This document shows positions 47,730 through 60,133 of a DNA stretch of 64,000 bases, in pieces. How positions within the stretch are numbered: the first letter of the stretch is position 1; each line of letters opens with the position of its first letter. Made by a program: the position numbers and the translations under genes. The notes beneath the pieces are model-generated. The model was not told where the DNA came from. It saw nothing but the letters and a program-made list of their open reading frames with translations, and did no database searches. Location: NCBI RefSeq assembly GCF_024296685.1, contig NZ_CP100763.1:124001-188000 (forward strand), written 5' to 3'. Source of the stretch: Natrinema marinum (GTDB lineage: Archaea > Halobacteriota > Halobacteria > Halobacteriales > Natrialbaceae).

Positions 47730-48052
47730 CAGTAGGATCCAGTAATGTAGCGGGCGAGTCGGCAGTTCTTCAGCGTCCGCGAGTGGCCGTCGTAGCCACC
47801 GGCCGGTTCGGTCTGTTCGAGGGACGAGCGCTCAAGGACATCCTCGAGGTCGGGCGTGACGTGCCACGATTGCTGGCCGACGGGAGTGTCGACCCAGACA
47901 ACTGGCCAGTCGGCGTGCCAGTACCAGCCAGCGTTCTCTCGTCCCCAGGTGAGTTTGATCGCTCTTGCGTAGGCGATCGCGAGGAGATTTCGGTCGTGAT
48001 AGACATCGTCAATTTCCTTGTCATTAGTCGGTGGTGGGTTGTCTGCACCCAT
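47729..48052 (-). CDS. First gene of the virion operon, unknown
   Basis: 107 aa from MGADNPPPTN. It contains a W-rich block (WGRENAGWYWHADWPVVWVDTP) and no known motif. A longer reading from ATG at 48097 adds 15 non-acidic residues, and its start fits the TATA spacing of the palindromic promoter at 48121. The start is therefore uncertain. It overlaps the zinc-finger gene by one base. Confidence 0.5.
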   Translation of the reverse strand: MGADNPPPTNDKEIDDVYHDRNLLAIAYARAIKLTWGRENAGWYWHADWPVVWVDTPVGQQSWHVTPDLEDVLERSSLEQTEPAGGYDGHSRTLKNCRLARYITGSY

Positions 48053-48120
48053 GCTCAGAGGGATTCGTGAGCGACTGATAGCGGTCGGGAATATCATAGT
48101 CTCGTACTGGTGAGACCAAT

Positions 48121-48128
48121 GTTTAAAC
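48121..48128. promoter_or_regulatory. Palindromic divergent TATA, GTTTAAAC
   Basis: The 8-bp palindrome contains TTTAAA readable in both directions. Its centre is 27 bp from a start at about 48097 on the minus strand and about 27 bp from a start at about 48152 on the plus strand, 5 bp before the ATG at 48157. A GTCTC/GAGAC inverted repeat (48099-48116) lies beside it and may be an operator. Confidence 0.45.
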
Positions 48129-48156
48129 AGGTTCAGGACCAGTTAGGAACGTAGCC

Positions 48157-48354
48157 ATGCCGATCCATCAGTTGACACAAGTTGGTCGTACGTCGGGCGG
48201 TGTTGTACTCCCGAAAAGCGAGCTTCGGGCGCTTGGATTGGTCGACGAAGAGGGGAACGTGAAAGATCAGCCAGTGCGGGTGACGCAGACAGATGCAGGG
48301 ACGTGGGAAGTTTCCGTGATCGATCCGAATGATTACCCGAAGCTGGAGGCATAG
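48157..48354 (+). CDS. AbrB/SpoVT-like small regulator
   Basis: 65 aa: MPIHQLTQVGRTSGGVVLPKSELRALGLV ... resembling a swapped-hairpin AbrB/SpoVT DNA-binding domain, as in antitoxins and halovirus regulators. It is opposite to the virion operon across the palindromic TATA, so it may control it. Confidence 0.55.
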   Translation: MPIHQLTQVGRTSGGVVLPKSELRALGLVDEEGNVKDQPVRVTQTDAGTWEVSVIDPNDYPKLEA

Positions 48355-48357
48355 AAC

Positions 48358-48501
48358 GTGACCGATCAGCCCACTCTTCCAGAGGACGATGAACTCGAGG
48401 ATATGGATTCCAACGAGGTCCGCGAGCGACTGCTCCGATTTATCGTCAAGCGAGATATGGACCGCCACCGCGATGTCTACGACGCCTTAGCCAACGAGTA
48501 G
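48358..48501 (+). CDS. 47-aa coupled protein after AbrB-like gene
   Basis: From GTG at 48358, the second codon after the AbrB-like stop, to TAG at 48501: 47 aa, mostly helical and charged (SNEVRERLLRFIVKRDMDRHRDVYDALANE). No motif. Close spacing with the upstream gene is the main support. Confidence 0.4.
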   Translation: MTDQPTLPEDDELEDMDSNEVRERLLRFIVKRDMDRHRDVYDALANE

Positions 48502-48530
48502 TCGATTTCGCGGCGAAACTTCTTAGCCGC

Positions 48531-48549
48531 TGCATACACGATGCATACA
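48531..48549 (+). promoter_or_regulatory. Two TGCATACA repeats before the VapB-like gene
   Basis: TGCATACA occurs at 48531-48538 and 48542-48549, an 11-bp period (about one helical turn), ending one base before the ATG at 48551. A repeated half-site on one DNA face suits autoregulation by an antitoxin-toxin complex. Confidence 0.45.
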
Positions 48550-48550
48550 T

Positions 48551-48748
48551 ATGAGTACATCCATCCGTGTCTCGGACGAGACGAAAGCAAAACTCGACCG
48601 CCTCAAGCGCGACGACGAGAGTTTCGACGAGTTACTCGAGCGATTGGCGAGCGACGAAGAGCCGATCACCGTCGGTGCATGGGATTCGGATACCGCCGAC
48701 CGGGCCCGCGACGCTATCGATCGATCGCGTAAGAGCTTCGAGCGATGA
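48551..48748 (+). CDS. vapB: VapB-like antitoxin
   Basis: 65 aa. The N-terminal MSTSIRVSDETKAKLDRLK is ribbon-helix-helix-like. It overlaps the PIN-domain gene by 4 bp, the standard antitoxin-then-toxin arrangement. It should bind and neutralise the PIN ribonuclease and bind its own promoter. Confidence 0.75.
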   Translation: MSTSIRVSDETKAKLDRLKRDDESFDELLERLASDEEPITVGAWDSDTADRARDAIDRSRKSFER

Positions 48749-49140
48749 CGTTTCTCGATTCGTCGGTCATCATCGACATGCTCGAGGGCGTCGATGAAAC
48801 TGTTGCATTCGTCGAATCACAAGATGAACCGTACCTCACGTCGGCGATCTGTGTCTACGAGGTCCTCGCCGGAACGCTCGGCAGCGGCGACACCGATCTC
48901 CGGGCGGAGCGCCAGCACTTCGGCGGCGTCCATTCGCTTGAGTTCAACGAGGAGATCGCGCTCGAGGCAGCTCGGCTACAAGACGAACTCCTCTCCGATG
49001 GCGACCGGATGGCCGTTCGCGATTTGATGATCGCGGCGACCGCCCGTTCGACCGGCGATCACCTCGTCGTTGCGGATTCGGACTTTCAGACGGCCGCGCT
49101 CGAGTCGAAAATGGAAGTGACGAATCTTCGGGACGATTGA
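48745..49140 (+). CDS. vapC: VapC-type PIN-domain ribonuclease toxin
   Basis: 131 aa PIN domain. The acidic metal site is readable as D5 (FLDSSVIIDML), E39 (YEVLAG), D93 (VRDLMIAATA) and D111/D113 (VADSDF). VapC toxins cut tRNA or rRNA. Paired with the gene before it. It is likely to stabilise the element. Confidence 0.85.
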   Translation: MTFLDSSVIIDMLEGVDETVAFVESQDEPYLTSAICVYEVLAGTLGSGDTDLRAERQHFGGVHSLEFNEEIALEAARLQDELLSDGDRMAVRDLMIAATARSTGDHLVVADSDFQTAALESKMEVTNLRDD

Positions 49141-49145
49141 TCCCT

Positions 49146-49170
49146 GTCCGCGAAGCCGGTCCTCGAGGAC
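49146..49170 (+). repeat. Possible degenerate cassette-boundary site
   Basis: GTCCGCGAA-N10-GAGGAC, 25 bp, just after the VapC stop. It resembles the 26-bp family (one mismatch in the left block, two in the right block, one base shorter). It may mark the left end of the cassette region, but chance is not excluded. Confidence 0.25.
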
Positions 49171-49274
49171 ATTTCAAGCGGGATAGGGGCCAATATCTGA
49201 ACGAACGACTCAGTCTTTCATGTTCTGTAGAGACAAAACTGGGCTTCGAGGACACCAGAATTTGCTAGGTACAA

Positions 49275-50174
49275 CTACGTCGATTCAGTAAGTCGCCGAA
49301 CTTTTGAGCGAAGCTTTGTCTTTGAAATTCCGCCTCTGTCGGCTTTCGCGTGACATCCGGGACACAGAACAATCAGGTTGGATGGCTTATTTGGACCGCC
49401 TTCGCTACGTGGTTCGATATGATGGACCTCTGGTTGATCAACACGCTCACCACACCACTCGCACTGTTGATCAGCTCGATCAAAATACAACTCATCCTTC
49501 AGTGATTGTGGTGCAGGCGGTGTCCGTTTAGTCTCCCCATTAGATTCACTGTTCGTGGTACTTGATTCCTCATCGCTATCTACCGTCGTGAGGAAATCCC
49601 ATGCTTCACCTGCTCCGCTTGTAGAGAACAGCACGGCAGCCCAACCGAAAATTGCTCCCCCGACCATCACCATCCCGCTACCGAGATAGAACGCTGGTGA
49701 TCCAACGGTAAAGCTAGATGAATAGAGGACAATCAGACCGGTTAGTGATAATGTCAGTGCAAATCCTCCTGGTGGAAGATCCTCAAGCGCATCAGCGAGA
49801 TTTTCATCGACTTCGCCTCCAGAATATCTGAGTTCTGCTCCTCTATTTTCGATATTAGAGTCAACAGCCGGTCCGAAGCTACTGATTGCAGAGGTAGATC
49901 CATTTGCGACTATTTCATCAAATATATCTTTAGCTTCTGAAGGAGAGTCTGCCTCATAACTGGGCACGCCGATAGCAGATCGATCGTTGAAGACAGCGGG
50001 TTCATAGTCAGAAGTAATGATATTAGCCTCTACAGTCTTATCGTATGTTACATCGTAGAGCCCCTCCTCAACCTTCTCAAGTCGCCATTCTCCCTCTCGC
50101 CGTACAACGCCCATGAGAGAAAGGATAGATTCAACCAAAATATAACTTCTGCTGATATTACTTGACTCCGGCAA
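49275..50174 (-). CDS. Membrane-anchored HNH nuclease
   Basis: 299 aa. The N-terminal 130 residues are unassigned, followed by two hydrophobic spans (about 138-152 and 160-184), a Ser/Asp-rich linker and a C-terminal HNH domain (C238-x2-C241, H251-H252, N266, C271-x2-C274-H275). This layout of sensor part, membrane spans and nuclease is of the kind seen in defence effectors; that role is inferred. AT-rich codons set it apart from the core genes. M21 is an alternative start. Confidence 0.7.
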   Translation of the reverse strand: MPESSNISRSYILVESILSLMGVVRREGEWRLEKVEEGLYDVTYDKTVEANIITSDYEPAVFNDRSAIGVPSYEADSPSEAKDIFDEIVANGSTSAISSFGPAVDSNIENRGAELRYSGGEVDENLADALEDLPPGGFALTLSLTGLIVLYSSSFTVGSPAFYLGSGMVMVGGAIFGWAAVLFSTSGAGEAWDFLTTVDSDEESSTTNSESNGETKRTPPAPQSLKDELYFDRADQQCEWCGERVDQPEVHHIEPRSEGGPNKPSNLIVLCPGCHAKADRGGISKTKLRSKVRRLTEST

Positions 50175-50214
50175 ATCGAGTCTGCGAATTATCTACTAGA
50201 GACCAGAGAAGTGT

Positions 50215-50240
50215 GTCCGAGAATTCACTAAAAATCGGAC
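50215..50240 (+). repeat. 26-bp cassette-boundary site, copy 1
   Basis: GTCCGAGAA-N11-TCGGAC, between the HNH gene and the gene at 50360. Outer arms GTCCGA/TCGGAC are complementary. Same length and orientation as copies 2 to 5. Confidence 0.7.
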
Positions 50241-50359
50241 AAGCAATCGGGAACCAGGTTCCAACATAGGGTAACACTATGCCGAGTCTGTCACTCCTAT
50301 TTTTCAGGCTCCTGCGCGGCCATACCCATTAAGGAGGCAACACAACGATATAGAATACA

Positions 50360-50974
50360 ATGGGGCTTGAGTTCACAACAGAACGGATCAAAAACAGTTG
50401 CTATGAATATCGTCAGACGCAGGAGAACAGATCTCCATTAGAGCTTGACGTTGATCATCGATGGGCAGAAGAACAGGAAATCCTACGGAGATTTCCGACG
50501 CAGTTCCAAAACAGTGGCTGTATTGAACAGCCAAAAGACTTCAAAGTTCTTACCCGCTGGAAGTGGGCCGGCCTCTGGTCAAACCATGCTAAAAAGAATT
50601 CCGCTGAGAGAATAGAGCGAATTACTCGTGCAGCCTTTAGCTGGGTTCCAGAATGTTCACCTCAGAGCAGGAATACGATTTTCAAGGATCAGATTGGTGT
50701 TCTCACATGCCTTGAGGGTGTTAGGCCGGCAATGGCATCTGTGATTCTCACCTTTTGGAAGCCAGAGGAATATACGGTTATGGATGAACGAGCTTTGGCA
50801 GCGCTTGCTAATTCTGCTGATGAGAAGTATCAGTGGACGGAACACCAGAAGGCGACCCGAAAACATTACCCAACCTATGTCAAGATTTGCAAACAGATAC
50901 AAGACGATCTCAACAACACCTTCAGTCTACGACAAATTGACCGTGCCCTCTGGGTACTTGGCGGAAAAATCTGA
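50360..50974 (+). CDS. Unknown protein with helix-hairpin-helix-like segment
   Basis: 204 aa. The stretch LTCLEGVRPAMASVILTFWKPEEYTVMDERALAAL resembles the helix-hairpin-helix of HhH-GPD DNA glycosylases and of related uncharacterised proteins. A basic/aromatic N-terminal region precedes it. A glycosylase-like or DNA-binding role is possible but not shown. Codons are AT-rich. It sits between cassette sites 1 and 2. Confidence 0.5.
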   Translation: MGLEFTTERIKNSCYEYRQTQENRSPLELDVDHRWAEEQEILRRFPTQFQNSGCIEQPKDFKVLTRWKWAGLWSNHAKKNSAERIERITRAAFSWVPECSPQSRNTIFKDQIGVLTCLEGVRPAMASVILTFWKPEEYTVMDERALAALANSADEKYQWTEHQKATRKHYPTYVKICKQIQDDLNNTFSLRQIDRALWVLGGKI

Positions 50975-51089
50975 GTGGGACAGTTTAGTGAGTCTCTCAC
51001 CTAACGGCTACCAGGATGCAAGTCTCTTTGTCTGAGAACTGCTACAGGGTCGGACGGACGATCTCGAGTCACCAGTAAGTACAGGGATC

Positions 51090-51518
51090 TCACTGACTGG
51101 TCAGGTCGTTTCGTCTACGGAGGATCGTGTTCCTGAGGCGAGGCAGATAGTGTGTGAGGTCAGTCGTTGTGAGGACGCCGACGAGGTCGCCATCGTCGGT
51201 GACCGGGAGTCGCTGGATCGAGTGCTCTTTCATCAGCATGGCCGCGGTATGGATGTCCTCTGTGCTGTCGATCGTGACGAGTGGCGTACTCAGAAACGTA
51301 GCGACACGAACGGATTCGATATCAGCCCCCGCTGCCACCTGTTGCATGATATCGGACTTAGTGACGATACCGCTGTACTCACCTGTCTCGGGATCGACCA
51401 CGACTGCCGAGCCGGTATCCTGTTCCGCGAACAGTGTCGCCACATCACAGGCTGTCGTCTCCGGCGGAATCGTTCGAACTGACTTTGTCATCACATCACC
51501 GACGATCTGGCCAATCAT
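51090..51518 (-). CDS. Tandem CBS-domain protein
   Basis: 142 aa consisting of two CBS units (VMTKSVRTIPPETTACDVATLFAEQDTGSAVVVD ... FLSTPLVTIDSTEDIHTAAMLMKEHSIQRLPVTDDGDLVGVLTTTDL). It should bind adenosine-containing ligands. Such proteins are common in haloarchaea. It is GC-richer than its neighbours, so it may have a different origin. Between cassette sites 1 and 2. Confidence 0.85.
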   Translation of the reverse strand: MIGQIVGDVMTKSVRTIPPETTACDVATLFAEQDTGSAVVVDPETGEYSGIVTKSDIMQQVAAGADIESVRVATFLSTPLVTIDSTEDIHTAAMLMKEHSIQRLPVTDDGDLVGVLTTTDLTHYLPRLRNTILRRRNDLTSQ

Positions 51519-51585
51519 ACTACTCGTACCTCCTGAAGAGGGTTAACGCTGCGGGGTAAGCATCTGTAGTTATCGCGAGCGCGGT

Positions 51586-51611
51586 GTCCGAGAATCACAG
51601 TAGAGTCGGAC
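51586..51611 (+). repeat. 26-bp cassette-boundary site, copy 2
   Basis: GTCCGAGAA-N11-TCGGAC with GAG before the right block. It lies in the 98-bp gap between the CBS gene start and the end of the next minus-strand gene, 6 bp from that gene's stop. Confidence 0.7.
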
Positions 51612-51616
51612 AAGAG

Positions 51617-52477
51617 CTACTGATTTAGATATGTGAATTCTCCAGCAGGAGGTACTTCTTTCGGGAGTTCATCATCAAAGAGGATGCACCAGCACCCATC
51701 CAGAAAAGTTCCAGCAAACACACGCATCATAGACACGTCTTCTCTGATGGCCCGTTCCATACCCTCCCCAAACGAATAGGCCGTGAGACGGTACAGATCA
51801 TCACCAGCAATGCGTGTTGACTTCAACAGAAGGAGCGTCGTGAGAGGATAGAGGTCAGATAAAAAAGAACCATTCCAAGCGAGCCGTTTGGTATTCTCAA
51901 CGAGTGATCCCTGAGCTGGCTCTTCATACGCGAGAAGATCAATCAACAAAGTTCGGGTACTGATAGCGAGCAATAGAATGAACGTTGCGCCGGCAATCCA
52001 CAAAGAAAGAGCCTCTGCAAGACCCGTTGGAACCTCAAAGTATACCAGACCGAGTGCTGCAAAAGTGAGCATCAAACTCACGCCAAACTCTCCAATATTA
52101 TACTTTTCTGATTCCACAAACTTCCCGCTCTCAAGACCATTTCGAAGGTTCTGACTAACCAGCTCCTGCGTATGTCCTTCACCGAAATGCTTCTCGATGA
52201 GTGCTTCTGCTACCCCGTCCATTACAGTCATAAAATCATCTCGAAGCATCCGAGCACTCTCCGGTGACAGCATAACCCGAACTGGAAGATATGGAATGCC
52301 TCGAAAGAGTACGACCGACCCTATTCGGCCGACTTGCCTCGAAATTATCGAAAGTCCGTACAACGCGCTAGCCAAAAGAAAACGGGGAATTGAGATACAC
52401 GCAAACCAGAATATCCCATAGAGAACTTTTCTATTCATATCCTGACGACTTCCATTTGATGAACTAAGTATTTCCAC
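51617..52477 (-). CDS. Polytopic membrane protein of unknown function
   Basis: 286 aa with hydrophobic spans near 18-40, 130-150 and 155-177, and a hydrophilic C-terminal half with GDDLYRLTAYSFGEGMERAIREDVSMM. AT-rich codons. No homologue recognised. Between cassette sites 2 and 3 with the 133-aa protein gene. Confidence 0.55.
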   Translation of the reverse strand: MEILSSSNGSRQDMNRKVLYGIFWFACISIPRFLLASALYGLSIISRQVGRIGSVVLFRGIPYLPVRVMLSPESARMLRDDFMTVMDGVAEALIEKHFGEGHTQELVSQNLRNGLESGKFVESEKYNIGEFGVSLMLTFAALGLVYFEVPTGLAEALSLWIAGATFILLLAISTRTLLIDLLAYEEPAQGSLVENTKRLAWNGSFLSDLYPLTTLLLLKSTRIAGDDLYRLTAYSFGEGMERAIREDVSMMRVFAGTFLDGCWCILFDDELPKEVPPAGEFTYLNQ

Positions 52478-52623
52478 ATATCGTTTGGCCAGTAAGAGGA
52501 GACCACGTCTCGTTATGGGTAGATCAGCGAAAATAGGGCTTGCTGATCAGTAGACTGAACGGGAGGAATTAATTGTCCGGGAATTGTTATTGATTCGGAC
52601 TGAAGCCACTATCATCTAAGGCT

Positions 52624-53025
52624 TCAACCACCAATATTCAGTAACTCTTTGACTTTTTCCCTGTCTTCGTCATTTCTGATTGGGTCTCCGCTATGAACCG
52701 AATTTGAGAGTCGAATCAAGTGACCTTCTACACGTTCAAGTGTTGAGGGGGCAGGCACCCAAAAAAGAGACCAGAGGACATAACCAGGAAGATCTTCCAT
52801 AACTGCTCTGAGTTCAGCAGCATCATCCCGCAATTCATAGCGTGCTTCGTCAATTCTGCTTTTCTTTCCGGCACCCGGGGAGGAAATTAGGTGGCTATAT
52901 TTAATTAGATCCTTTGCGATTTTCTTCCGTACTTGTCGATATCCACGGAGTGGCCTCACGATAAAATCTTTTACGAGGGCCCCGAAAAATCCAGCAAGAA
53001 CCGCGATACCGATTTCGGTAAGCAT
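52624..53025 (-). CDS. Single-span membrane protein with cytoplasmic helical domain
   Basis: 133 aa. An N-terminal span (IGIAVLAGFFGALVKDFIV) followed by a basic then helical domain (DEARYELRDDAAELRAVMEDLP). AT-rich. No family recognised; single-span proteins of this kind occur alone in genomic islands. Confidence 0.5.
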   Translation of the reverse strand: MLTEIGIAVLAGFFGALVKDFIVRPLRGYRQVRKKIAKDLIKYSHLISSPGAGKKSRIDEARYELRDDAAELRAVMEDLPGYVLWSLFWVPAPSTLERVEGHLIRLSNSVHSGDPIRNDEDREKVKELLNIGG

Positions 53026-53106
53026 GATCCTGCTGTTTTAATCTCAGTTGTTTAAATATACCTGATTATCCAGTAGACTCGTAGTGAGTACGAACCGCAA
53101 GTTCTG

Positions 53107-53132
53107 TGTCCGAGAACTACCGTACTCTCGGA
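53107..53132 (+). repeat. 26-bp cassette-boundary site, copy 3
   Basis: GTCCGAGAA-N8-CTCTCGGAC. This copy has the most extended inverted symmetry: GTCCGAGAA pairs with CTCTCGGAC at 8 of 9 positions, which suggests the ancestral form has 9-bp arms and an 8-bp centre. Confidence 0.7.
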
Positions 53133-53184
53133 CAGGATCAACTTCGATCATGGTCTCGAAGGAGATATTTTGCTTCCCAACTAT

Positions 53185-53210
53185 GTCCGAGAAATCGATG
53201 AAGACTAGAC
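53185..53210 (+). repeat. 26-bp cassette-boundary site, copy 4 (degenerate)
   Basis: GTCCGAGAA is intact, but the right block reads CTAGAC instead of TCGGAC. It is placed 78 bp from copy 3, so the unit between them is empty of genes. Confidence 0.5.
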
Positions 53211-53316
53211 TCCCTGATATACACCGGTAGATTTGGCTTATAAACCCATCGCTGAATGTATTATCGACTAATACTCTTGTTTAAGCCAAATCCGATCATA
53301 GCCTGGTGCGGTCGAT

Positions 53317-53574
53317 ATGACTGAAACAATGATGCTCCGATTCGAAGCTCCGGATTGGATGGATAAGAAGTATGTGAACGGCGAGTGGCAGCACCTCGTT
53401 GGACTAGAACAAGAAGACGAAGATGGAACGGAATACTATAAGCCGGTTCTAGTGAACGATGGGACAGAGCGCTGGTGGGTCTGGAAAGACCAACGACTCA
53501 TGAGCTACGGGCCACAACTTACGACTCGAGAGCGTCAAGTTCTCTCGAAGGTCGTGGACTTCCTAAAAGAGTAA
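53317..53574 (+). CDS. 85-aa acidic cassette protein
   Basis: MTETMMLRFEAPDWMDKKYV ... with several Trp/Tyr residues and a C-terminal amphipathic helix (RERQVLSKVVDFLKE). No family recognised. A gene alone between cassette sites 4 and 5, oriented towards the recombinase. Confidence 0.5.
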   Translation: MTETMMLRFEAPDWMDKKYVNGEWQHLVGLEQEDEDGTEYYKPVLVNDGTERWWVWKDQRLMSYGPQLTTRERQVLSKVVDFLKE

Positions 53575-53612
53575 TCGATGATCTAGACCGAGAAGCCTTG
53601 GTATAGAGGTGC

Positions 53613-53638
53613 GTCCGAGAATACGGACAGAGTCGGAC
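53613..53638 (+). repeat. 26-bp cassette-boundary site, copy 5
   Basis: GTCCGAGAA-N11-TCGGAC with GAG before the right block. It lies 86 bp before the recombinase gene, between the 85-aa protein gene and the recombinase. Confidence 0.7.
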
Positions 53639-53698
53639 AGAATTAGCCCGATCTCCCCCTTGAGGACCACCGAAAGAACTAGATTGCTGGCGTTTTTT

Positions 53699-53722
53699 GT
53701 CCGGAATGCAGGTAACCCGGAC
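53699..53722 (+). repeat. 24-bp recombinase-proximal inverted repeat
   Basis: Arms GTCCGG and CCGGAC with a 12-bp centre, ending 2 bp before the recombinase ATG. It shares the GTCCG/CGGAC ends with the 26-bp sites but has a different middle. It is either an attI-like primary site or an autoregulatory operator. Confidence 0.5.
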
Positions 53723-53724
53723 GC

Positions 53725-54312
53725 ATGAATCTGCAACAGCACGAGAACCGCGACGACATGAAGGTCTGGCTTAGCCAGAACGAAGTAGAACAGTTGCTCG
53801 AGGCTGCCGACGATACCCAGCAGCGGATCGCGTTCGCACTTGGGGCGCGGTGCGGGCTCCGCTCACACGAGGTCCTCGACGTTGCGCCGGAGGATATCGT
53901 CGATACCGACGCCGGGACGATGCTCCGCGTGTGGCACGGGAAGGGAGACAAGTTCCGTGAGACGCCGGTCCCGCGAGATCTCGCGACGACTATCCGGACG
54001 GTCGACGACGTACGCGACGCACCGTCCAGCTCGTCGCTCGTCAAGATCACGAGTACGCGGTCACTCCGACGATGGGTTCGATCGGCGGCCGACCAACTGT
54101 ACGACGAGACGGGAGACGCTGGGTGGGACCATCTCGGCTTCCACGATCTCCGCCGTACCTGGGCGACCGCGCTCGCCTCCGACGATGTTGATCCGCTCCT
54201 GGTCTGTGACTGGGGCGGATGGAACGACCTCGAGACCTTCCTCGAGCATTATCGGGGTAGCTACAGCCCCGAGGCGCAACAGCGAGAGCGAGGAAAAGTA
54301 GACTGGCTGTAG
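53725..54312 (+). CDS. Minimal tyrosine recombinase
   Basis: 195 aa, so only the catalytic domain and a short leader; the usual N-terminal core-binding domain is missing or reduced. Catalytic residues: Arg46 (CGLRSHE), Lys73/76 (HGKGDKFRETPVP), His140-x2-Arg143 (FHDLRRTWATA), Trp166 (WGGW) and Tyr176 (LEHYRGSY). It directly follows the site family at 50215-53722, pointing away from it. I infer that it recombines those sites. Similar short integrases are frequent in haloarchaea. Confidence 0.8.
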   Translation: MNLQQHENRDDMKVWLSQNEVEQLLEAADDTQQRIAFALGARCGLRSHEVLDVAPEDIVDTDAGTMLRVWHGKGDKFRETPVPRDLATTIRTVDDVRDAPSSSSLVKITSTRSLRRWVRSAADQLYDETGDAGWDHLGFHDLRRTWATALASDDVDPLLVCDWGGWNDLETFLEHYRGSYSPEAQQRERGKVDWL

Positions 54313-54321
54313 GAACCTCGT

Positions 54322-55533
54322 TCAGTCCGCGAAATCCAGCGTTGCTTGTTTGGCGTAGCCACCGATCTCCGTCCGCTTGTCACTGAATTCGTCCGGGGTC
54401 ATGGCCCCACACCGCAGCTCGTAGATTCGCTCTCGGTCGGTCTCGGTGAGTTCGTCGCCATAGATGCTCTCTCTGAGATAGTAGCCGAGAGCCTCGCCGA
54501 GATACGGCGGTACCGCGTTGCCGATCTGCTTTCGAATCGAGACGAGGCCGCCGTCGAAGCGGTACGTATCGGGGAACGTCTGGAGCCTCGCGCCTTCGCG
54601 AGGGGTGAGTCCACGATCTTGGAACGGGTGAATACACCGTGCGCTCGAGGGTTTCGACATATTCGACGTGATCGCGACCGCCGGTTCGTCCGAACTGAGA
54701 CGAGAGTAGGAGTTGTGATAGCCGGAGGAAGGCTGTAGCTCGTCGGGAATGGCCGTTCGGTTCCCCCCATCGGGGATGTGAGAAATCATCTCGACCATGT
54801 CATCCGAGTGGCTCGCAGCGATGTGAGCAGACAGTTCCTCGCTACCGTTTCTGAGATCCTGTTGGAGAAGCGTCTGGGGCTCTGCGTCGTACTCCGTGAT
54901 CTCTTCGCCGGGACCGACCTCCGGAAGGTCACCGATCCCGTCCATTACGCCGGGCGTCCGCACTGGGTTCAACTCGAACCCGTCAAACGGATGCTCTCGG
55001 ATGTCCTTTTTCGTCGCGATCGCGACAAGTCGACGTCGGTGCTGTGGGACGCCGAAGTCGGATGCTTTGACGACCCTGTGGGTCACGTCGTAGCCGATCA
55101 GATCGAACGACTTCTCGACAGCTTCGAGGAACTTCCCGTCAGCGGTATTCTGGATGCCGCGGACGTTCTCGAAGAGCGCCGCGTCGGGCTCGAGTTCGTT
55201 CACCCAGCTGATGAAGTTCGTAAAGAGATGGTTCCGATCGTCGGAGCCGTCGGGGCTTACGACTTCGGAGAACCCCTGACACGGGGGGCCACCCGCGACC
55301 AAATCAATCGTGTCCTGACCGACGAGGTCGACGATTTCATGGTTACCAACATCCCGGATATCTCTCGTGATATCGTCCGGCTTTAGACCGTCTCGGTTCT
55401 TCGCGAACGTAGACCTCGCGTCCTCGTCTACCTCGACGGCGTGTTCCAATTCAAAGCCGGCTCTCTCCAACCCGATAGAGAGCCCTCCTGCGCCGGCAAA
55501 TAAATCAACGTAGGTAAGAGTCCGGTCACCCAT
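54322..55533 (-). CDS. DNA (cytosine-5) methyltransferase
   Basis: 403 aa with motif I LFAGAGGLSIGLERAG (11-26), motif IV GGPPCQGFSE with Cys85, ENV motif at 122-124, and the C-terminal motif RLQTFPDTYRF region. It methylates C5 of cytosine in a specific DNA site; the sequence is unknown. Paired with a divergent PD-(D/E)XK protein, it looks like a type II restriction-modification system. An ATTAAATA box (55558-55565) fits a leaderless start at 55533. Confidence 0.9.
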   Translation of the reverse strand: MGDRTLTYVDLFAGAGGLSIGLERAGFELEHAVEVDEDARSTFAKNRDGLKPDDITRDIRDVGNHEIVDLVGQDTIDLVAGGPPCQGFSEVVSPDGSDDRNHLFTNFISWVNELEPDAALFENVRGIQNTADGKFLEAVEKSFDLIGYDVTHRVVKASDFGVPQHRRRLVAIATKKDIREHPFDGFELNPVRTPGVMDGIGDLPEVGPGEEITEYDAEPQTLLQQDLRNGSEELSAHIAASHSDDMVEMISHIPDGGNRTAIPDELQPSSGYHNSYSRLSSDEPAVAITSNMSKPSSARCIHPFQDRGLTPREGARLQTFPDTYRFDGGLVSIRKQIGNAVPPYLGEALGYYLRESIYGDELTETDRERIYELRCGAMTPDEFSDKRTEIGGYAKQATLDFAD

Positions 55534-55557
55534 CTAATAGAGACTGCTGCTTAACCG

Positions 55558-55565
55558 TATTTAAT
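55558..55565 (-). promoter_or_regulatory. TATA box of the methyltransferase gene
   Basis: ATTAAATA on the minus strand, centred 28-29 bp before the ATG at 55533, which makes the transcript leaderless. Confidence 0.5.
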
Positions 55566-55721
55566 CATTCGCCCTCTCGATAGCTCTACCAAAAGTGGTA
55601 TTTCGATGGAAAGTTCTTTAGCGGATGTATTATTGAAGTACACATTACGACTGTAGCTCGTTTCCAAAGGCGATACCGGAGGCGGGTTGAGTGGCAGACC
55701 TCTCGAGGGGGAGATATTAGA

Positions 55722-56903
55722 ATGAGCGTGGACATCACGGACGACGAACAGGAAAAGATCGACGGGTTTCTCTCTGATTACTTCGACGTAGACCTCGATC
55801 AACGTCTCCTCGACTACAGTGAGGACGATAGCGAGGAGTCATCGGTCGACGAAGCCGACGAGATTGAGGAACTTGTCGATCGAACCAGGAACATCTACGA
55901 CGAGCGCGGGAAAGGCTATCTAGGTCTTGCGCTCTCTTTCATCTTGTCCGTCGAGGACCTCTCGCAGGCGGATCCGTGGCTTGCGGAGTTCCAGCCGGAC
56001 CTCAACTGGGAAGACGACATCCTCCCGCGGTACGAACAGAAGGGCGTTGATTATCGGACCGGCCGTAACCTCGACACCCTCTCGCTCCGGTACAACGATC
56101 ATGAGGTCGGAATTCGGGGATGTATCAACGACATCGGTGACTTCTTCCACCAGACAATGAGCCGGACGAACTTTCCGAACGCTCCGGGCCACTACACCGG
56201 CAACTGGAAAGACCACATCGAGGTCCTCGAGTCGTCGTTTGCCCTCTCGAGAGCAGGACGCCGAGAAGCAGCGGAGCGAATCATCGAGCTAGGGCTCGAT
56301 CGCCTGCAGTCGAAGGACTACCCGAGACGGGAGCCCGCGTTCTCACAGCCGTTCCTCGAGATCCTCAACGACTACGAGCGAAAAGACGACAACGAGATGG
56401 GCGGGCTGGCTTACCAGGCGATGGTGTACGGCTACGCGACGGCCGAGTGGACGCATCTATCACTCCGAGCGAGTAGCGTCCGAACGGGATCCTCACGACA
56501 GCATCGGTTCGGGGACATCGACGGCTATCATGGCCCGGACCTCATGATCTCGGTCGAAGCGAAGGACCGAGTCATCGACGAGTCGAATATCGACACCGAA
56601 CTCGGTACTATGATGAAGTTAGCCGAGCGGTCGACTACGATCTCGATCGCTGTCTGTCGGGAGGTCAAAGCAGACGCTCGAGAAACCCTACAGGAGGAGG
56701 GCGTGAAGGTCATCACTGATACGGACCTCCGAATTCAACTCCGAACCTGGGACTACCACAAACAGAATGTCGCGCTTCAGGGGATGGTTCACTTCCTCGA
56801 GCATATCGAAGAGAACCCGACGGCAACACGGCGACTGCTACGGTTCGTAGAAGATATTGATCCGAATAATTCTGCGTTGGCTCATCTCGACAGCGAAAAC
56901 TAA
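55722..56903 (+). CDS. Putative restriction endonuclease, PD-(D/E)XK
   Basis: 393 aa. The motif GPD-x5-EAK is complete: D273, E279 and K281 (GPDLMISVEAKD), preceded by GDID (264-267). The N-terminal half is acidic and helical, with a DRTRNIYDERGKGYLGLALSF block. No recognised type II subfamily. Its divergent position from a C5-methyltransferase, with a 188-bp shared control region, makes it the likely cognate nuclease. Specificity unknown. Confidence 0.7.
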   Translation: MSVDITDDEQEKIDGFLSDYFDVDLDQRLLDYSEDDSEESSVDEADEIEELVDRTRNIYDERGKGYLGLALSFILSVEDLSQADPWLAEFQPDLNWEDDILPRYEQKGVDYRTGRNLDTLSLRYNDHEVGIRGCINDIGDFFHQTMSRTNFPNAPGHYTGNWKDHIEVLESSFALSRAGRREAAERIIELGLDRLQSKDYPRREPAFSQPFLEILNDYERKDDNEMGGLAYQAMVYGYATAEWTHLSLRASSVRTGSSRQHRFGDIDGYHGPDLMISVEAKDRVIDESNIDTELGTMMKLAERSTTISIAVCREVKADARETLQEEGVKVITDTDLRIQLRTWDYHKQNVALQGMVHFLEHIEENPTATRRLLRFVEDIDPNNSALAHLDSEN

Positions 56904-56906
56904 TCT

Positions 56907-57530
56907 CTACTCATTTTCATCTGAATCCAGTCTCCTCTCTGCGATTCTCGGAGTTATCTCATAATCGGTTTCCGAACCTAACATGCTAATCGATACTACT
57001 GTGTCTTCTTCGATAACGTACTCATAAAGAGTTTCAACAGAACCCATGGTATGAAGGTGTACAAAATCTGCATAGGTCCCATCTCCTCTCTTTATTTTCC
57101 TAAATAGTCTCTCTTCATCTGGTTTTGTTCTTTCTACGTCAATATTGAGATCAACATTGTAGAGTTCACCCCGTTCATTTGTGCAAAGGTAGTATGACAC
57201 CCCAAGCGATTCCATAAACAATTCATCGGGATTCTTTCGGTCAACAGACGAATCCTCAATTCCCATATATATGAGCGCAAGCGTCGTTGCAATGTGATCG
57301 ACTTCCTGTTTGAGTAAATCATCGAATATTAACTCTCTGTCTTTTTCGCCAATATTATCAAATACAAATGACAAGTCTTCAAACGATTGTTTCACTTTTT
57401 CTCTTATTCTGTATTTAGCGTCTCTTTCTGCGCTTCGCGTCAAGTCAGAGTCGCCACTTAATACCTCTTCATCTCTAGCTGTAAGTATACCCGTATTCCG
57501 TCGATTGCTCCCATTATCTTTATTAGTCAT
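56907..57530 (-). CDS. Unknown AT-rich gene product
   Basis: 207 aa from ATG at 57530. N-terminal part polar (RNTGILTARDEEVLSGDSDLTRSAERDAKYRIREKVKQSFEDLSFVFDNI), C-terminal part with VVSISMLGSETDYEITPRIAE. AT-rich codons unlike the neighbours. Longer upstream reading lacks coding character. A cluster of CAGAC half-sites overlaps its promoter. Function unknown. Confidence 0.5.
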   Translation of the reverse strand: MTNKDNGSNRRNTGILTARDEEVLSGDSDLTRSAERDAKYRIREKVKQSFEDLSFVFDNIGEKDRELIFDDLLKQEVDHIATTLALIYMGIEDSSVDRKNPDELFMESLGVSYYLCTNERGELYNVDLNIDVERTKPDEERLFRKIKRGDGTYADFVHLHTMGSVETLYEYVIEEDTVVSISMLGSETDYEITPRIAERRLDSDENE

Positions 57531-57541
57531 CGGTATCACTC

Positions 57542-57564
57542 CAGACGTCTGTACTAACACAGAC
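57542..57564. promoter_or_regulatory. Overlapping CAGAC palindromes at the promoter
   Basis: CAGACGTCTG (57542-57551) overlaps GTCTGT-N6-ACAGAC (57547-57564), so three CAGAC half-sites lie between about -12 and -34 of the gene starting at 57530. An operator that blocks TATA-box access is the natural reading. Confidence 0.45.
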
Positions 57565-57632
57565 GAAGACTTATTACATAAATCTACGTAATAGTAGTTA
57601 GAACAGATGTAACTCAAGAAGGGATAGCCTAA

Positions 57633-57821
57633 ACAGGTTGAATCGCCCTGTGCAGCACCCAACCGGCTGCCACACAGGACGGGTGCTGCCCAGGTCGTAG
57701 AAATCACCTTACGGATCGGGTTTGCAGAACCGCAAGGCGATCTATTGCGAGTGGACCTTGTATTCCACTCATTATAGATTTTGCCCCTCGCGGTAGATCC
57801 GCGAGCGACTGGAATGGTCGC
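57633..57821. other. Hairpin cluster, possible structured RNA or origin
   Basis: Gene-free sequence between two divergent genes holds at least five inverted repeats. A 14-bp arm with one mismatch is at 57647-57660/57681-57694. GAGTGGA/TCCACTC is at 57749-57755/57764-57770. CTCGCGG/CCGCGAG is at 57787-57793/57799-57805. GCGAC/GTCGC is at 57805-57809/57817-57821. An alternative ACAGG/CCTGT pair (57633-57651) competes with the first. TTGC/GCAA at 57722-57734 adds one more. Confidence 0.4.
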
Positions 57822-57833
57822 AGATCCAGAAAA

Positions 57834-58454
57834 ATGGGTCGACAACACGTAGAACGAGTAATCCGCCTCCTGAAAGGAGGCAAAGACTGTAGTGGAGAGA
57901 TGATCGAGATCGCACATGGGTTCCTTCGTGAAGGGATCGGTCCCGCTCACGAAGGAATCAAATCCAGTGATACTGAGGCAGAACTCAGTTTATTACTGAC
58001 TTATGATCCAAAAACCTCACTAGATCATCTGCAAGAAGTCGGGCTCATAGAGTCTGACCCAGAAGAAGCCGATGATCTGCGTACTTTCGCTATCGCAGAA
58101 TGGTTAGGAACCGATGGCGAAATCATCAATGGAGAGGTAGAAGATACGGCGGAAGACGCTCTTGAGGCACTTATCGACCACATGCACGCTACTGATGCCA
58201 GCGATTCGCCTGCAATTGCAGATGGTGGCGTGACTCATCGAGGTGTTCTCAAAGATGAGTTCGGCATTGAGCCGGCGAGAATAGAAAACCGACTCCGAAC
58301 CGGCGATCCGGTCAAAACACTTCGAACCGCTGTTTCAGCAATCCAGGAACATCCAGGTCTCGCTACGCGAGGAGACTACGGGATGATAACTTTCCGGTAT
58401 GAGGCGTACCGCTATACACTTACAAGTGAGGCGGTCAATCTCTATCGGATATAG
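57834..58454 (+). CDS. Unknown acidic protein after the hairpin region
   Basis: 206 aa: MGRQHVERVIRLLKGGKDC..., with a repeat-like structure of helical segments (HEGIKSSDTEAELSLLLTYDP; FGIEPARIENRLRTGDPVKTLRTAVSAIQEHPGLA). The C-terminal end resembles a winged-helix segment. AT-rich. Not recognised. A start 13 bp after the last hairpin suggests the hairpins act in its leader. Confidence 0.45.
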   Translation: MGRQHVERVIRLLKGGKDCSGEMIEIAHGFLREGIGPAHEGIKSSDTEAELSLLLTYDPKTSLDHLQEVGLIESDPEEADDLRTFAIAEWLGTDGEIINGEVEDTAEDALEALIDHMHATDASDSPAIADGGVTHRGVLKDEFGIEPARIENRLRTGDPVKTLRTAVSAIQEHPGLATRGDYGMITFRYEAYRYTLTSEAVNLYRI

Positions 58455-58476
58455 GCGCTGAAACAAACCTATGGCC

Positions 58477-58770
58477 TTATTCTCGTAGTATTTTAGGCGA
58501 CGGTTTCGGTCGATTCTCGACATCGAGTTCTCCATCGAGATATTCCTGTCCCTCACATGTGATTTCGTACATGTGACTATCCTCAAAGAGTGGGGCAACC
58601 AGTCCTACCTGAGAAAGCAGTTGACAACGCTCCTTGACCCGCCCACGCGATGCGGTGAGATTGACTGCTCGAGACATATGCCGCGGTGTCGACCACGGAT
58701 CTTCCGAGAGATGCTCAAGGATCCGTTCGTCGAGCGTACACATCCAGCGGGCGGGTTTTCGGTTCGTCAC
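58477..58770 (-). CDS. PhiH1-repressor-like winged-helix protein 2
   Basis: 97 aa with the PhiH1 repressor pattern: WMCTLDERILEHLSEDPWSTPRHMSRAVNLTASRGRVKERCQLLSQVGLVAPL ... YEITCEGQEYLDGELD. Such proteins control lysogeny in haloarchaeal viruses. It overlaps the upstream repressor gene (ATGA) and probably shares its transcript. Confidence 0.75.
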   Translation of the reverse strand: MTNRKPARWMCTLDERILEHLSEDPWSTPRHMSRAVNLTASRGRVKERCQLLSQVGLVAPLFEDSHMYEITCEGQEYLDGELDVENRPKPSPKILRE

Positions 58771-59078
58771 GATTCAGAGGTTTCGCTTGCAGTGGGGCCG
58801 TCTCTCGAGCCGTTTCCATTGAGGTAGACCTCGTTTTCGGCGTCGTACTCCTCGTCGAGATATGCTTCGCCACGTTCAGTGATCGTGTAAACCCCATTTC
58901 CGAGAGGAGTGAGAAGACCATGCTCTGCAAGCTTCTTGCATCTCCGGGATACTGATGATTGAGAGATTCTAATCCCGTCTCGGTCGGTGAGATCTCCTAC
59001 TCGTCCTGCATCCTCGTCTCGAATGATCTCCAGAATACGATCGTCCCAGATAGTCATCCATGTCCCAGATTGTCTCAT
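58767..59078 (-). CDS. PhiH1-repressor-like winged-helix protein 1
   Basis: 103 aa: WMTIWDDRILEIIRDEDAGRVGDLTDRDGIRISQSSVSRRCKKLAEHGLLTPLGNGVYTITERGEAYLDEEYDAE. The same fold as its downstream neighbour, with a different recognition helix. A tandem repressor pair divergent from the early genes suggests a lysis-lysogeny switch. Confidence 0.75.
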   Translation of the reverse strand: MRQSGTWMTIWDDRILEIIRDEDAGRVGDLTDRDGIRISQSSVSRRCKKLAEHGLLTPLGNGVYTITERGEAYLDEEYDAENEVYLNGNGSRDGPTASETSES

Positions 59079-59288
59079 TAAGATCCAAAAACGTATCTAT
59101 GGCCCTAATGATACGGAATATACTGCTAAAAACATAATTAGGCACCGATGACTAACCGTTGCATTTATGCAAGACTAGACTAACAGTGGCTGTACGGAGC
59201 TACCAACTCGGCTGAAGATGACTCTTGTTGGTATGTGAGACCGGGCGGCGTTGGCGCGCCGCCCAGAAGGTAGCTCCGGTGATCTGGA
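59079..59288. promoter_or_regulatory. Divergent switch region with palindromes
   Basis: 210 bp between the repressor pair and the early genes. It contains CCTAAT/ATTAGG (59104-59109/59137-59142) and TTGCAT-TT-ATGCAA (59159-59172), both likely operators, in an AT-rich stretch (ATGATACGGAATATACTGC). Promoters for both directions must lie here. Confidence 0.4.
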
Positions 59289-59663
59289 ATGAATCTCGGA
59301 ACTTCCGTGGGGCATGCACCCCACGCACGGCAAGAGGCATCGCCCTCCAAAAGGTCTGACGCTCGGTGCGCCTGCGGTGCTCGAGCGGACGGCTACGACG
59401 CCGGCAGCAACGAGCCGGTTTGTCAGTCCTGTGCGCACCTCCGCACCGACGGTGGACCTACGTCGGGCTCGCCGGAGGCACGGCGCCAAGCGGATGCACT
59501 CAAGACGATCGCCAGTGAACTGCGGTATCAGAACGCCGTTCTCACCGAGGTTATCGGCACCCTCGGTGCAATCCACGGCCAGGAGATGCGTTCGGCGACG
59601 TCGATCAACACTGCGATCGACGATCACCTGACCACTCGCGACGTGCAGGGGGTGAGCCGATGA
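59289..59663 (+). CDS. Zinc-ribbon protein, first early gene
   Basis: 124 aa with a CxC...CxxC zinc site (CACGARADGYDAGSNEPVCQSCA). The C-terminal half is helical (LKTIASELRYQNAVLTEVIGTLGAIH). It overlaps the next gene by 4 bp. It opens the right-hand early string that ends in the integrase. No known function. Confidence 0.5.
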   Translation: MNLGTSVGHAPHARQEASPSKRSDARCACGARADGYDAGSNEPVCQSCAHLRTDGGPTSGSPEARRQADALKTIASELRYQNAVLTEVIGTLGAIHGQEMRSATSINTAIDDHLTTRDVQGVSR

Positions 59664-60133
59664 ACGGACGCAGCCCCTACACCTGCGATACGCCGGGCTG
59701 CACCAACTGGAAGGAAGTCTTCACGCCCGACGGCTACGTCTGTGAGGACTGCGCGGACGAACTCGCGGAGGACTACGAAGCCGAGCCCGAGCTAGTGGCC
59801 GACGGCGGCATCGCCTGGGGCGACCTCACCGGCTTCCAGCGAGACATCCTCGAGACGATCGCTGGGTTTGAGTCGGTCGGGATGGATCCCTACGGGCTCG
59901 CGATCGAAGAAGACCTCGAGGAGTACTACGGCGAGATCGGCCACAGCCGACTATACCAGAACCTCGACAGCCTGACCGATGCCGGATTCATCGATCGCGG
60001 CGAACTCGACGGGCGGACAAACAGCTACACGCTGACGGCCGAAGCCGAGGCGCTGCTCGAGGAGAGCGTTCATCGACGCGCGGACGCCTGTGGGATCGAG
60101 ATCGCTGCGACCGACGGAGGTGACGAGACGTGA
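59660..60133 (+). CDS. PadR-like winged-helix protein with N-terminal zinc finger
   Basis: 157 aa. An N-terminal C9-x4-C14 ... C28-x2-C31 zinc site (CDTPGCTNW ... CEDCADE) precedes a PadR-like winged helix (LTGFQRDILETIAGFESVGMDPYGLAIEEDLEEYYGEIGHSRLYQNLDSLTDAGFIDRGELDGRTNSYTLT). Common in haloviruses and their proviruses. It likely regulates early genes. Confidence 0.7.
   Translation: MNGRSPYTCDTPGCTNWKEVFTPDGYVCEDCADELAEDYEAEPELVADGGIAWGDLTGFQRDILETIAGFESVGMDPYGLAIEEDLEEYYGEIGHSRLYQNLDSLTDAGFIDRGELDGRTNSYTLTAEAEALLEESVHRRADACGIEIAATDGGDET

Follow-up and report, generated by a model that had tools for sequence, protein, structure and literature searches.

A Predicted Type II Restriction-Modification Pair of Natrinema marinum, with Relatives in Other Haloarchaea and a Pleolipovirus, Whose Nuclease Is Probably a Distant Relative of EcoT38I and SacI

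Introduction

Among described enzymes, those closest to the nuclease considered here are probably EcoT38I (PDB entries 7e8r and 7edb) and SacI (Pfam family RE_SacI, PF09566). Proteins of the RE_SacI family are found in haloarchaea as well and, as a profile of eight of these matches EcoT38I at an E value of 2.3e-33, the haloarchaeal RE_SacI proteins and EcoT38I can be viewed as one family. The subject here is a pair of divergently oriented genes of the haloarchaeon Natrinema marinum, found within a stretch of 64,000 nucleotides (contig NZ_CP100763.1, positions 124,001 to 188,000) which, at its full length, is referred to as the window. One gene, M (54322-55533, minus strand; this and the following coordinates are those of open reading frames, or ORFs), encodes a C5-cytosine DNA methyltransferase of 403 amino acids (aa), and the other, R (55722-56903, plus strand), encodes a predicted restriction endonuclease of 393 aa. 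Between the two is a control region of 188 bp (55534-55721). This divergent arrangement had been described in a first-pass annotation of the window, and both the coordinates and an occurrence of the two genes in the same genomes that is beyond chance are borne out.

We consider it highly probable that M and R together are a Type II restriction-modification system, that is, one with a PD-(D/E)XK nuclease whose C-terminal half is probably distantly related to EcoT38I and SacI and whose predicted active site consists of D265, E279, and K281. The pair is ordinary in kind and very probably real, with R a so-far unnamed relative of known enzymes. What has been computed here is gene identity, co-occurrence, motif conservation, and the conservation of M's presumed recognition region.

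Co-occurrence of Methyltransferase and Nuclease

As found using the PADLOC model PDLC03399, R is present in 21 of 391 genomes of the haloarchaeal class, in one of these as a remnant only. M, at a cut-off that was chosen to capture close relatives (E ≤ 1e-100), is present in 20 of the 391, which are exactly the 20 with full-length R. A draw of 392 genomes from the phylum gave six with R, all of them already among the 21, and further relatives of R are found on contigs of Salinadaptatus, Natronomonas, and Halorarius.

Individual loci, designated here by L numbers, display the same association. Upon checking 25 of these by blastp for M in the vicinity of R, an M homologue was found in 23, with 70-90% identity for full-length matches. 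L047 (genome G280) and a locus of the bacterium Microvirga (L027) are the two without one. In G280, R is found without M and consists solely of a 123-aa fragment which starts after D265, the outcome to be anticipated if cells cannot tolerate R in the absence of M. Since L024 and L030 share the same R, and L026 is the same as L038 over 5.9 kb, the distinct systems with full-length R number 22, the window's included. In all 22, the distance from R to M is no more than 4 kb. The link of R to C5-methyltransferases, as proposed by the first-pass annotation, thus holds for full-length haloarchaeal R, with the Microvirga R instead adjoining another methyltransferase.

The gap separating M from R is 38-705 bp in 21 of the 22 systems, the window among them, and 3.9 kb in L029, where it contains McrBC-type genes (L029:964-4583). 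The latter is curious in its own right, that is, a system dependent on 5-methylcytosine (5mC) standing beside a C5-methyltransferase. Orientation is divergent in 16 systems and tandem in six, with the tandem six forming one clade in the M tree as well as in the R tree. Those trees cover 21 systems (L024 being omitted, and the M of L029 being incomplete because the stretch ends within it), over which M and R distances correlate (Mantel rho of 0.31, a value reached in 21 of 2000 permutations). Two observations nonetheless weigh against viewing M and R as one system: their trees agree only in part, and the M of Natronomonas sp. CBA1123 (L024/L030) is broken into two frames beside an intact R, which may be either sequencing error or real decay.

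The nearest relatives of the window's pair are those of L023 and L041, at 83-90% identity and with the same layout. As a separate observation, near M in L032 there is a gene (L032:4449-4703) for a small, conserved protein, about 85 aa long, with homologues in L033, L034, and L046; Pfam gives no match to the L032 copy at E ≤ 0.01.

The Methyltransferase

M is matched by PF00145 of Pfam over residues 7-350 (7.3e-63), by the dcm family TIGR00675 of NCBIfam (2.6e-50), and by the MTase_II model PDLC03234 of PADLOC (9.4e-104), and the C5-methyltransferase motifs FAGAGG, PPCQG, and ENV are all found in it. Over the whole of the 3.77-Mb genome, it is the sole PF00145 match at E ≤ 0.001. As this search gave a single C5-methyltransferase gene, any 5mC motif in Natrinema marinum would be assignable to M directly and at once.

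Residues 236-310 (54604-54828, minus strand) we take to be the target-recognition region, i.e., going by the known layout of C5-methyltransferases. Across 21 systems, residues 236-312 have a mean majority frequency of 0.91, the highest of the stretches compared, with 64% of positions invariant. For residues 313-352 these values are 0.89 and 70%, and over residues 1-180 the mean majority frequency is 0.75-0.83. This high conservation of the presumed recognition region suggests one recognition site for the M family as a whole.

The Nuclease and Its Active Site

Neither Pfam nor NCBIfam gives a match to R that is over, or indeed near, cut-off, which is why R could look unfamiliar, as it did to the first-pass annotation. 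That description finds no support in PADLOC, as the REase_II model PDLC03399, which is without a curated cut-off, matches residues 68-377 at 2.2e-28. Used as query on its own genome, R finds only itself.

An alignment of R was made which consists of 22 haloarchaeal proteins plus the Microvirga homologue. Residues that are invariant in all 23 include, among others, G264, D265, D267, S277, E279, and K281, giving rise to a probable catalytic motif over residues 264-281 (56511-56564, plus strand), GD(265)xD-x11-E(279)-x-K(281). A PD-(D/E)XK-type motif, as previously annotated, is therefore present, with its E-x-K invariant. Placement of its first aspartate has to be revised, however. Within the string GPDLMISVEAK, GPD had been read as the first part of the catalytic motif, yet D273 of that string aligns with arginine in the Microvirga homologue. 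EcoT38I possesses D, D, E, and K at positions equivalent to 265, 267, 279, and 281 of R, and haloarchaeal SacI-family proteins display the pattern GDvE/GDiE ... ExKDK, such that in EcoT38I and SacI a GD/DID followed by an ExKD motif is in register with R. The active site thus probably is D265, E279, and K281, with D265 the likelier metal ligand because D273 is lost in Microvirga and because the EcoT38I and SacI-family patterns match D265. As predicted from these residues, R is most likely a PD-(D/E)XK-type restriction endonuclease.

Other Pfam families were considered as to R's identity and rejected. These are DUF7599, Nitro_FeMo-Co, EAD2, and others, all of which fall below cut-offs and each of which is seen in only one to four of the 23 members. 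The DUF7599 match covers residues 309-384 in the clade of the window's R, i.e., adjoining the catalytic core, and reaches 2.2e-5 (L041). That of Nitro_FeMo-Co reaches 4.7e-5 in the R of L046, a copy which has been lengthened by a repeated stretch.

Kinship with EcoT38I and SacI

The Pfam family matched by most members of the R family is RE_SacI, with 10 of the 23 matched at E ≤ 1, a best E of 0.0061, and matches falling around the catalytic motif in every R member that is listed individually. Searched over the haloarchaeal class, RE_SacI finds three of these R loci at E values of 0.004-0.008, which is under cut-off. EcoT38I, in turn, is the best PDB match to a profile of the R family (E 0.029).

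Comparison of alignments points in the same direction. With hhalign, the R family matches the eight haloarchaeal RE_SacI proteins at E 5.6e-5 over its whole length. In separate runs, the full R alignment scores 27.6 (E 3.3e-5), versus at most 14.1 among 200 column shuffles, which were made with the full-length alignment only; a reversed R alignment gives E 0.24. Residues 216-393 by themselves score 38.3 (E 3.7e-7). Structure prediction for full-length R resulted in a poor model (pLDDT, a predicted local distance difference test score, of 48), for which EcoT38I is found at ranks 6-7 among unrelated helical proteins (Z 5.2 and 5.1). A model of residues 204-393 (56331-56903, plus strand) has a pLDDT of 67.4 and a predicted template modeling score (pTM) of 0.69, and in fold comparison EcoT38I holds ranks 1 and 2 (Z 6.3 and 5.7), with 149 residues aligned at a root-mean-square deviation of 4.3. 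Next are the small subunit of BspD6I (Z 4.7) and then MspJI (Z 4.3).

From profile and model, then, the C-terminal half of R is probably a distant relative of EcoT38I and SacI, evidence for which is fair though not conclusive, with the likeness residing in the PD-(D/E)XK domain. There is a likeness of setting, too, as haloarchaeal RE_SacI genes adjoin an apparent methyltransferase gene in eight of nine loci (L060-L068). In six of the nine that neighbour is of 294-302 aa and resembles an adenine methyltransferase, in two it is a C5 enzyme, and one locus possesses a truncated nuclease frame. Parallels to these arrangements are also found among annotated loci.

Alternative Readings

It is possible, though we do not think it probable, that R is a PD-(D/E)XK Type II nuclease without any special kinship with SacI or EcoT38I, the likeness then being that of a shared catalytic core. 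A number of results do weigh against kinship. All of the matches to SacI and EcoT38I center on the catalytic region, residues 1-215 of R show no similarity to the SacI set (hhalign E 0.69), and R falls short of the RE_SacI gathering score, this being 19.3 bits, which no member of the R family reaches (17.9 at best) and by which R thus differs from SacI and EcoT38I proper. The clade of the window's R, that is, the R of the window, L023, and L041, is not matched by RE_SacI at all, and DUF7599 and Nitro_FeMo-Co, which themselves are under their cut-offs, have lower best E values than RE_SacI. Removing Microvirga reduces the hhalign score to 18.1 (E 0.0017), and hence part of that signal stems from the bacterial sequence. 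The Z of 6.3 lies below the level which is safe for that tool (Z 8), and Foldseek alone found no significant match. Favoring relatedness, on the other hand, is that it is the same family, SacI/EcoT38I, which comes out on top in Pfam member count, in PDB profile search, and in fold comparison, and that the alignments span about 150-170 residues, i.e., beyond the motif alone.

A different possibility, one which the first-pass annotation had entertained, is that R is a modification-dependent nuclease (Type IIM or IV) that cuts foreign DNA marked with 5mC, M then being unrelated or otherwise employed. In the fold comparison the modification-dependent MspJI and AspBHI do rank fourth and tenth (Z 4.3 and 3.7), and Mrr_cat weakly matches the R of L025 (E 0.2, with 12.3 bits versus a cut-off of 21). 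Both enzymes nevertheless rank below EcoT38I, and no SRA, EVE, or other modified-base reader domain is found among the Pfam matches of R at E ≤ 1, a scan in which few matches above about 0.1 pass the HMMER filters and which a reader domain outside of Pfam, or below those filters, would escape. The reading fits poorly as well with so constant a C5-methyltransferase partner, as all 20 genomes with full-length R also possess M, and an active C5-methyltransferase next door should expose the host chromosome to any nuclease that targets 5mC. We regard it as highly improbable. Only slightly less improbable is that the window's pair is a decayed or silent relic. The surrounding stretch is of low GC and does contain a recombinase gene, and R was not found in any of the 20 further listed members of the genus. 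Yet neither frame is broken, the invariant residues have been kept, and the two nearest relatives are 83-90% identical, share the layout, and retain part of the control region.

Control Region and a Winged-HTH Gene

In L023 and L041, as in the window, 188 bp separate M from R (for L041 with the start assigned by homology). At 24 nt before the start codon of M, and identical in all three, is the element ATTAAATA (55558-55565, read on the minus strand, i.e., that of M). This is a probable TATA box of M, a role which we assume from the usual archaeal promoter layout, with a spacing that fits a leaderless transcript. A block at 55608-55642 (plus strand) also is largely kept among the three, with the approximately 75 bases next to R not kept, and possibly represents a promoter or operator of R. 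The single ORF of at least 60 aa that spans most of the gap in the window (55551-55802, minus strand, 83 aa, TTG start) has no Pfam match, and among ORFs of that size no helix-turn-helix (HTH) controller gene overlapping R was found here.

It is upstream of the nuclease gene that the controller gene is found in bacterial restriction systems. In four of the 22 systems that position, between M and R and on the strand of R, is occupied by a winged-HTH gene (PF25213, 100-114 aa), namely L035:4497-4841, L039:6100-6408, L043:4599-4910, and L044:4546-4848, with an overlap of 4 to 8 bases at the start of R (that of L043 as assigned by homology). In the R tree the carrying systems group two by two; in the M tree they lie dispersed. 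As PF25213 genes are common in haloarchaea, with eight over cut-off in the Natrinema marinum genome, adjacency as such means little; sameness of position, strand, and overlap across four systems is better evidence. Those portions of the controller-protein literature that were available, including of one review, gave no case of a winged-HTH gene in this position, which is not proof of absence.

Recognition Site

EcoT38I recognizes GRGCYC and SacI recognizes GAGCTC. Avoidance of sites was assessed by comparing 296 kb of sequence from carriers, i.e., the window plus 21 loci, with 99 kb from around SacI-family loci, using maximum-order Markov ratios for palindromes of four and six bases and a simpler expectation for interrupted ones of five and seven. 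No palindrome was avoided in carriers alone, which counts against a restricting R to the extent that so weak a method, with little sequence and that from different genera, can speak to the matter. By the same weak test, GAGCTC, CTNAG-type, and other motifs display no carrier-specific avoidance; GAGCTC, seen 85 times in carrier loci versus 96 expected, is not clearly avoided, which decides nothing.

The recognition region of M was aligned as well with those of nine methyltransferases from outside of the M family. Similarity is highest with two plasmid enzymes, of Psychrobacter (0.48) and of Peribacillus (0.47), that comparison having drawn on six plasmid records among the 30 matches listed, of 111 matched. 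It is 0.33-0.37 with two partners of NotI-family enzymes and 0.16-0.17 with two haloarchaeal SacI-family partners. As recognition regions of the latter are only 16-17% identical to M's, the site of M likely differs from that of the SacI-family partners. The Peribacillus plasmid (L092), for its part, carries twin C5-methyltransferases and a pair of REase_II subunits (PDLC03564) which may form a heteromeric restriction enzyme; it is the first of the twins that has a recognition region rather like that of the window's M, and no known site could be tied to the locus. For the haloarchaeal dcm group of Fullmer et al. 2019 (PMC6471742), CGGCCG, GTCGAC, and ACGT are given there as blast-based predictions.

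Genomic Setting, Carriers, and Mobility

The M-R pair lies inside a stretch of about 12 kb (48000-60000) which is of low GC, i.e., 0.52-0.53 versus 0.61-0.69 elsewhere in the window, as determined in 4-kb blocks. Directly after M there is a tyrosine recombinase gene (PF00589; 53725-54312), the 195-aa product of which is without the usual N-terminal domain. Homologues of about 200 aa are found in L025, L035, L037, and L042, with the Pfam match confirmed for L025. The same low-GC stretch contains an HNH nuclease gene (49275-50174) and small ORFs (58477-59078), one of which weakly matches a winged-HTH family. No tRNA-sequence repeat bounding the stretch was found in an att-site search within the window.

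A virus carries the whole pair, this being pleolipovirus Halfgib1 of Haloferax gibbonsii (MW344766; L026:4803-7287). The divergent arrangement there is that of the window, M is 75% and R about 50% identical, and the R is annotated as a 'hypothetical protein' (HfxHg1_070). Halfgib1 is described as a provirus that is active in Hfx. gibbonsii (PMC7911831), with the available portion of that paper making no mention of a restriction pair. Another pleolipovirus, HHPV4I, is already known to encode a nuclease, an m6A-dependent HNH enzyme (PMC10101028). Halfgib1 is the only match in the phage collection and Microvirga the only one in the plasmid collection, with the same outcome using the Microvirga query, no R relative was confirmed in scans of IMG/VR viral contigs, and nothing significant came from the BFVD structure search.

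The bacterial homologue is from a plasmid of Microvirga sp. VF16 and is 27% identical to the window's R over residues 116-372. Homology extends over much of R's length and the invariant residues are the same, yet the Microvirga protein scores far better on the PDLC03399 model, at 1.1e-89, than does the window's R. It differs also in its partner: the Microvirga R (L027:6592-8885) follows an N6/N4-type methyltransferase (PF01555) with a DPPY motif, whereas the window's R is paired with a C5 enzyme. One nuclease family is thus found with two kinds of methyltransferase, a comparison for which Microvirga is the single bacterial example.

How the pair may function follows the ordinary logic of such systems. 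M would place its methyl group on C5 of a cytosine within a single short site and R would cut DNA where that site is unmethylated, with the two genes travelling together among haloarchaea and at least one pleolipovirus. The pair probably also would stabilize its carrier, since to lose M while R persists would be dangerous. Enzymatic activities, a shared site, protective logic, and this addiction effect are what we infer. More speculatively still, and indeed as a whole doubtful, the haloarchaeal branch could be a restriction-modification lineage that is mobile, being carried by a virus in the case of Halfgib1. Its nuclease would have swapped an amino-methyltransferase for a C5 partner, and part of the lineage would have recruited an archaeal winged-HTH gene to where bacteria have the controller gene, which, as co-transcribed and translationally coupled with R, would delay restriction following entry into a new host.

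Implications

What has been a 'hypothetical protein' of haloarchaea and of a virus becomes, by prediction, a restriction enzyme whose active site is named and whose partner is open to testing. The difference in partner between the bacterial and archaeal systems, together with the winged-HTH gene in controller position, bears on how restriction systems spread and on how they are switched on.

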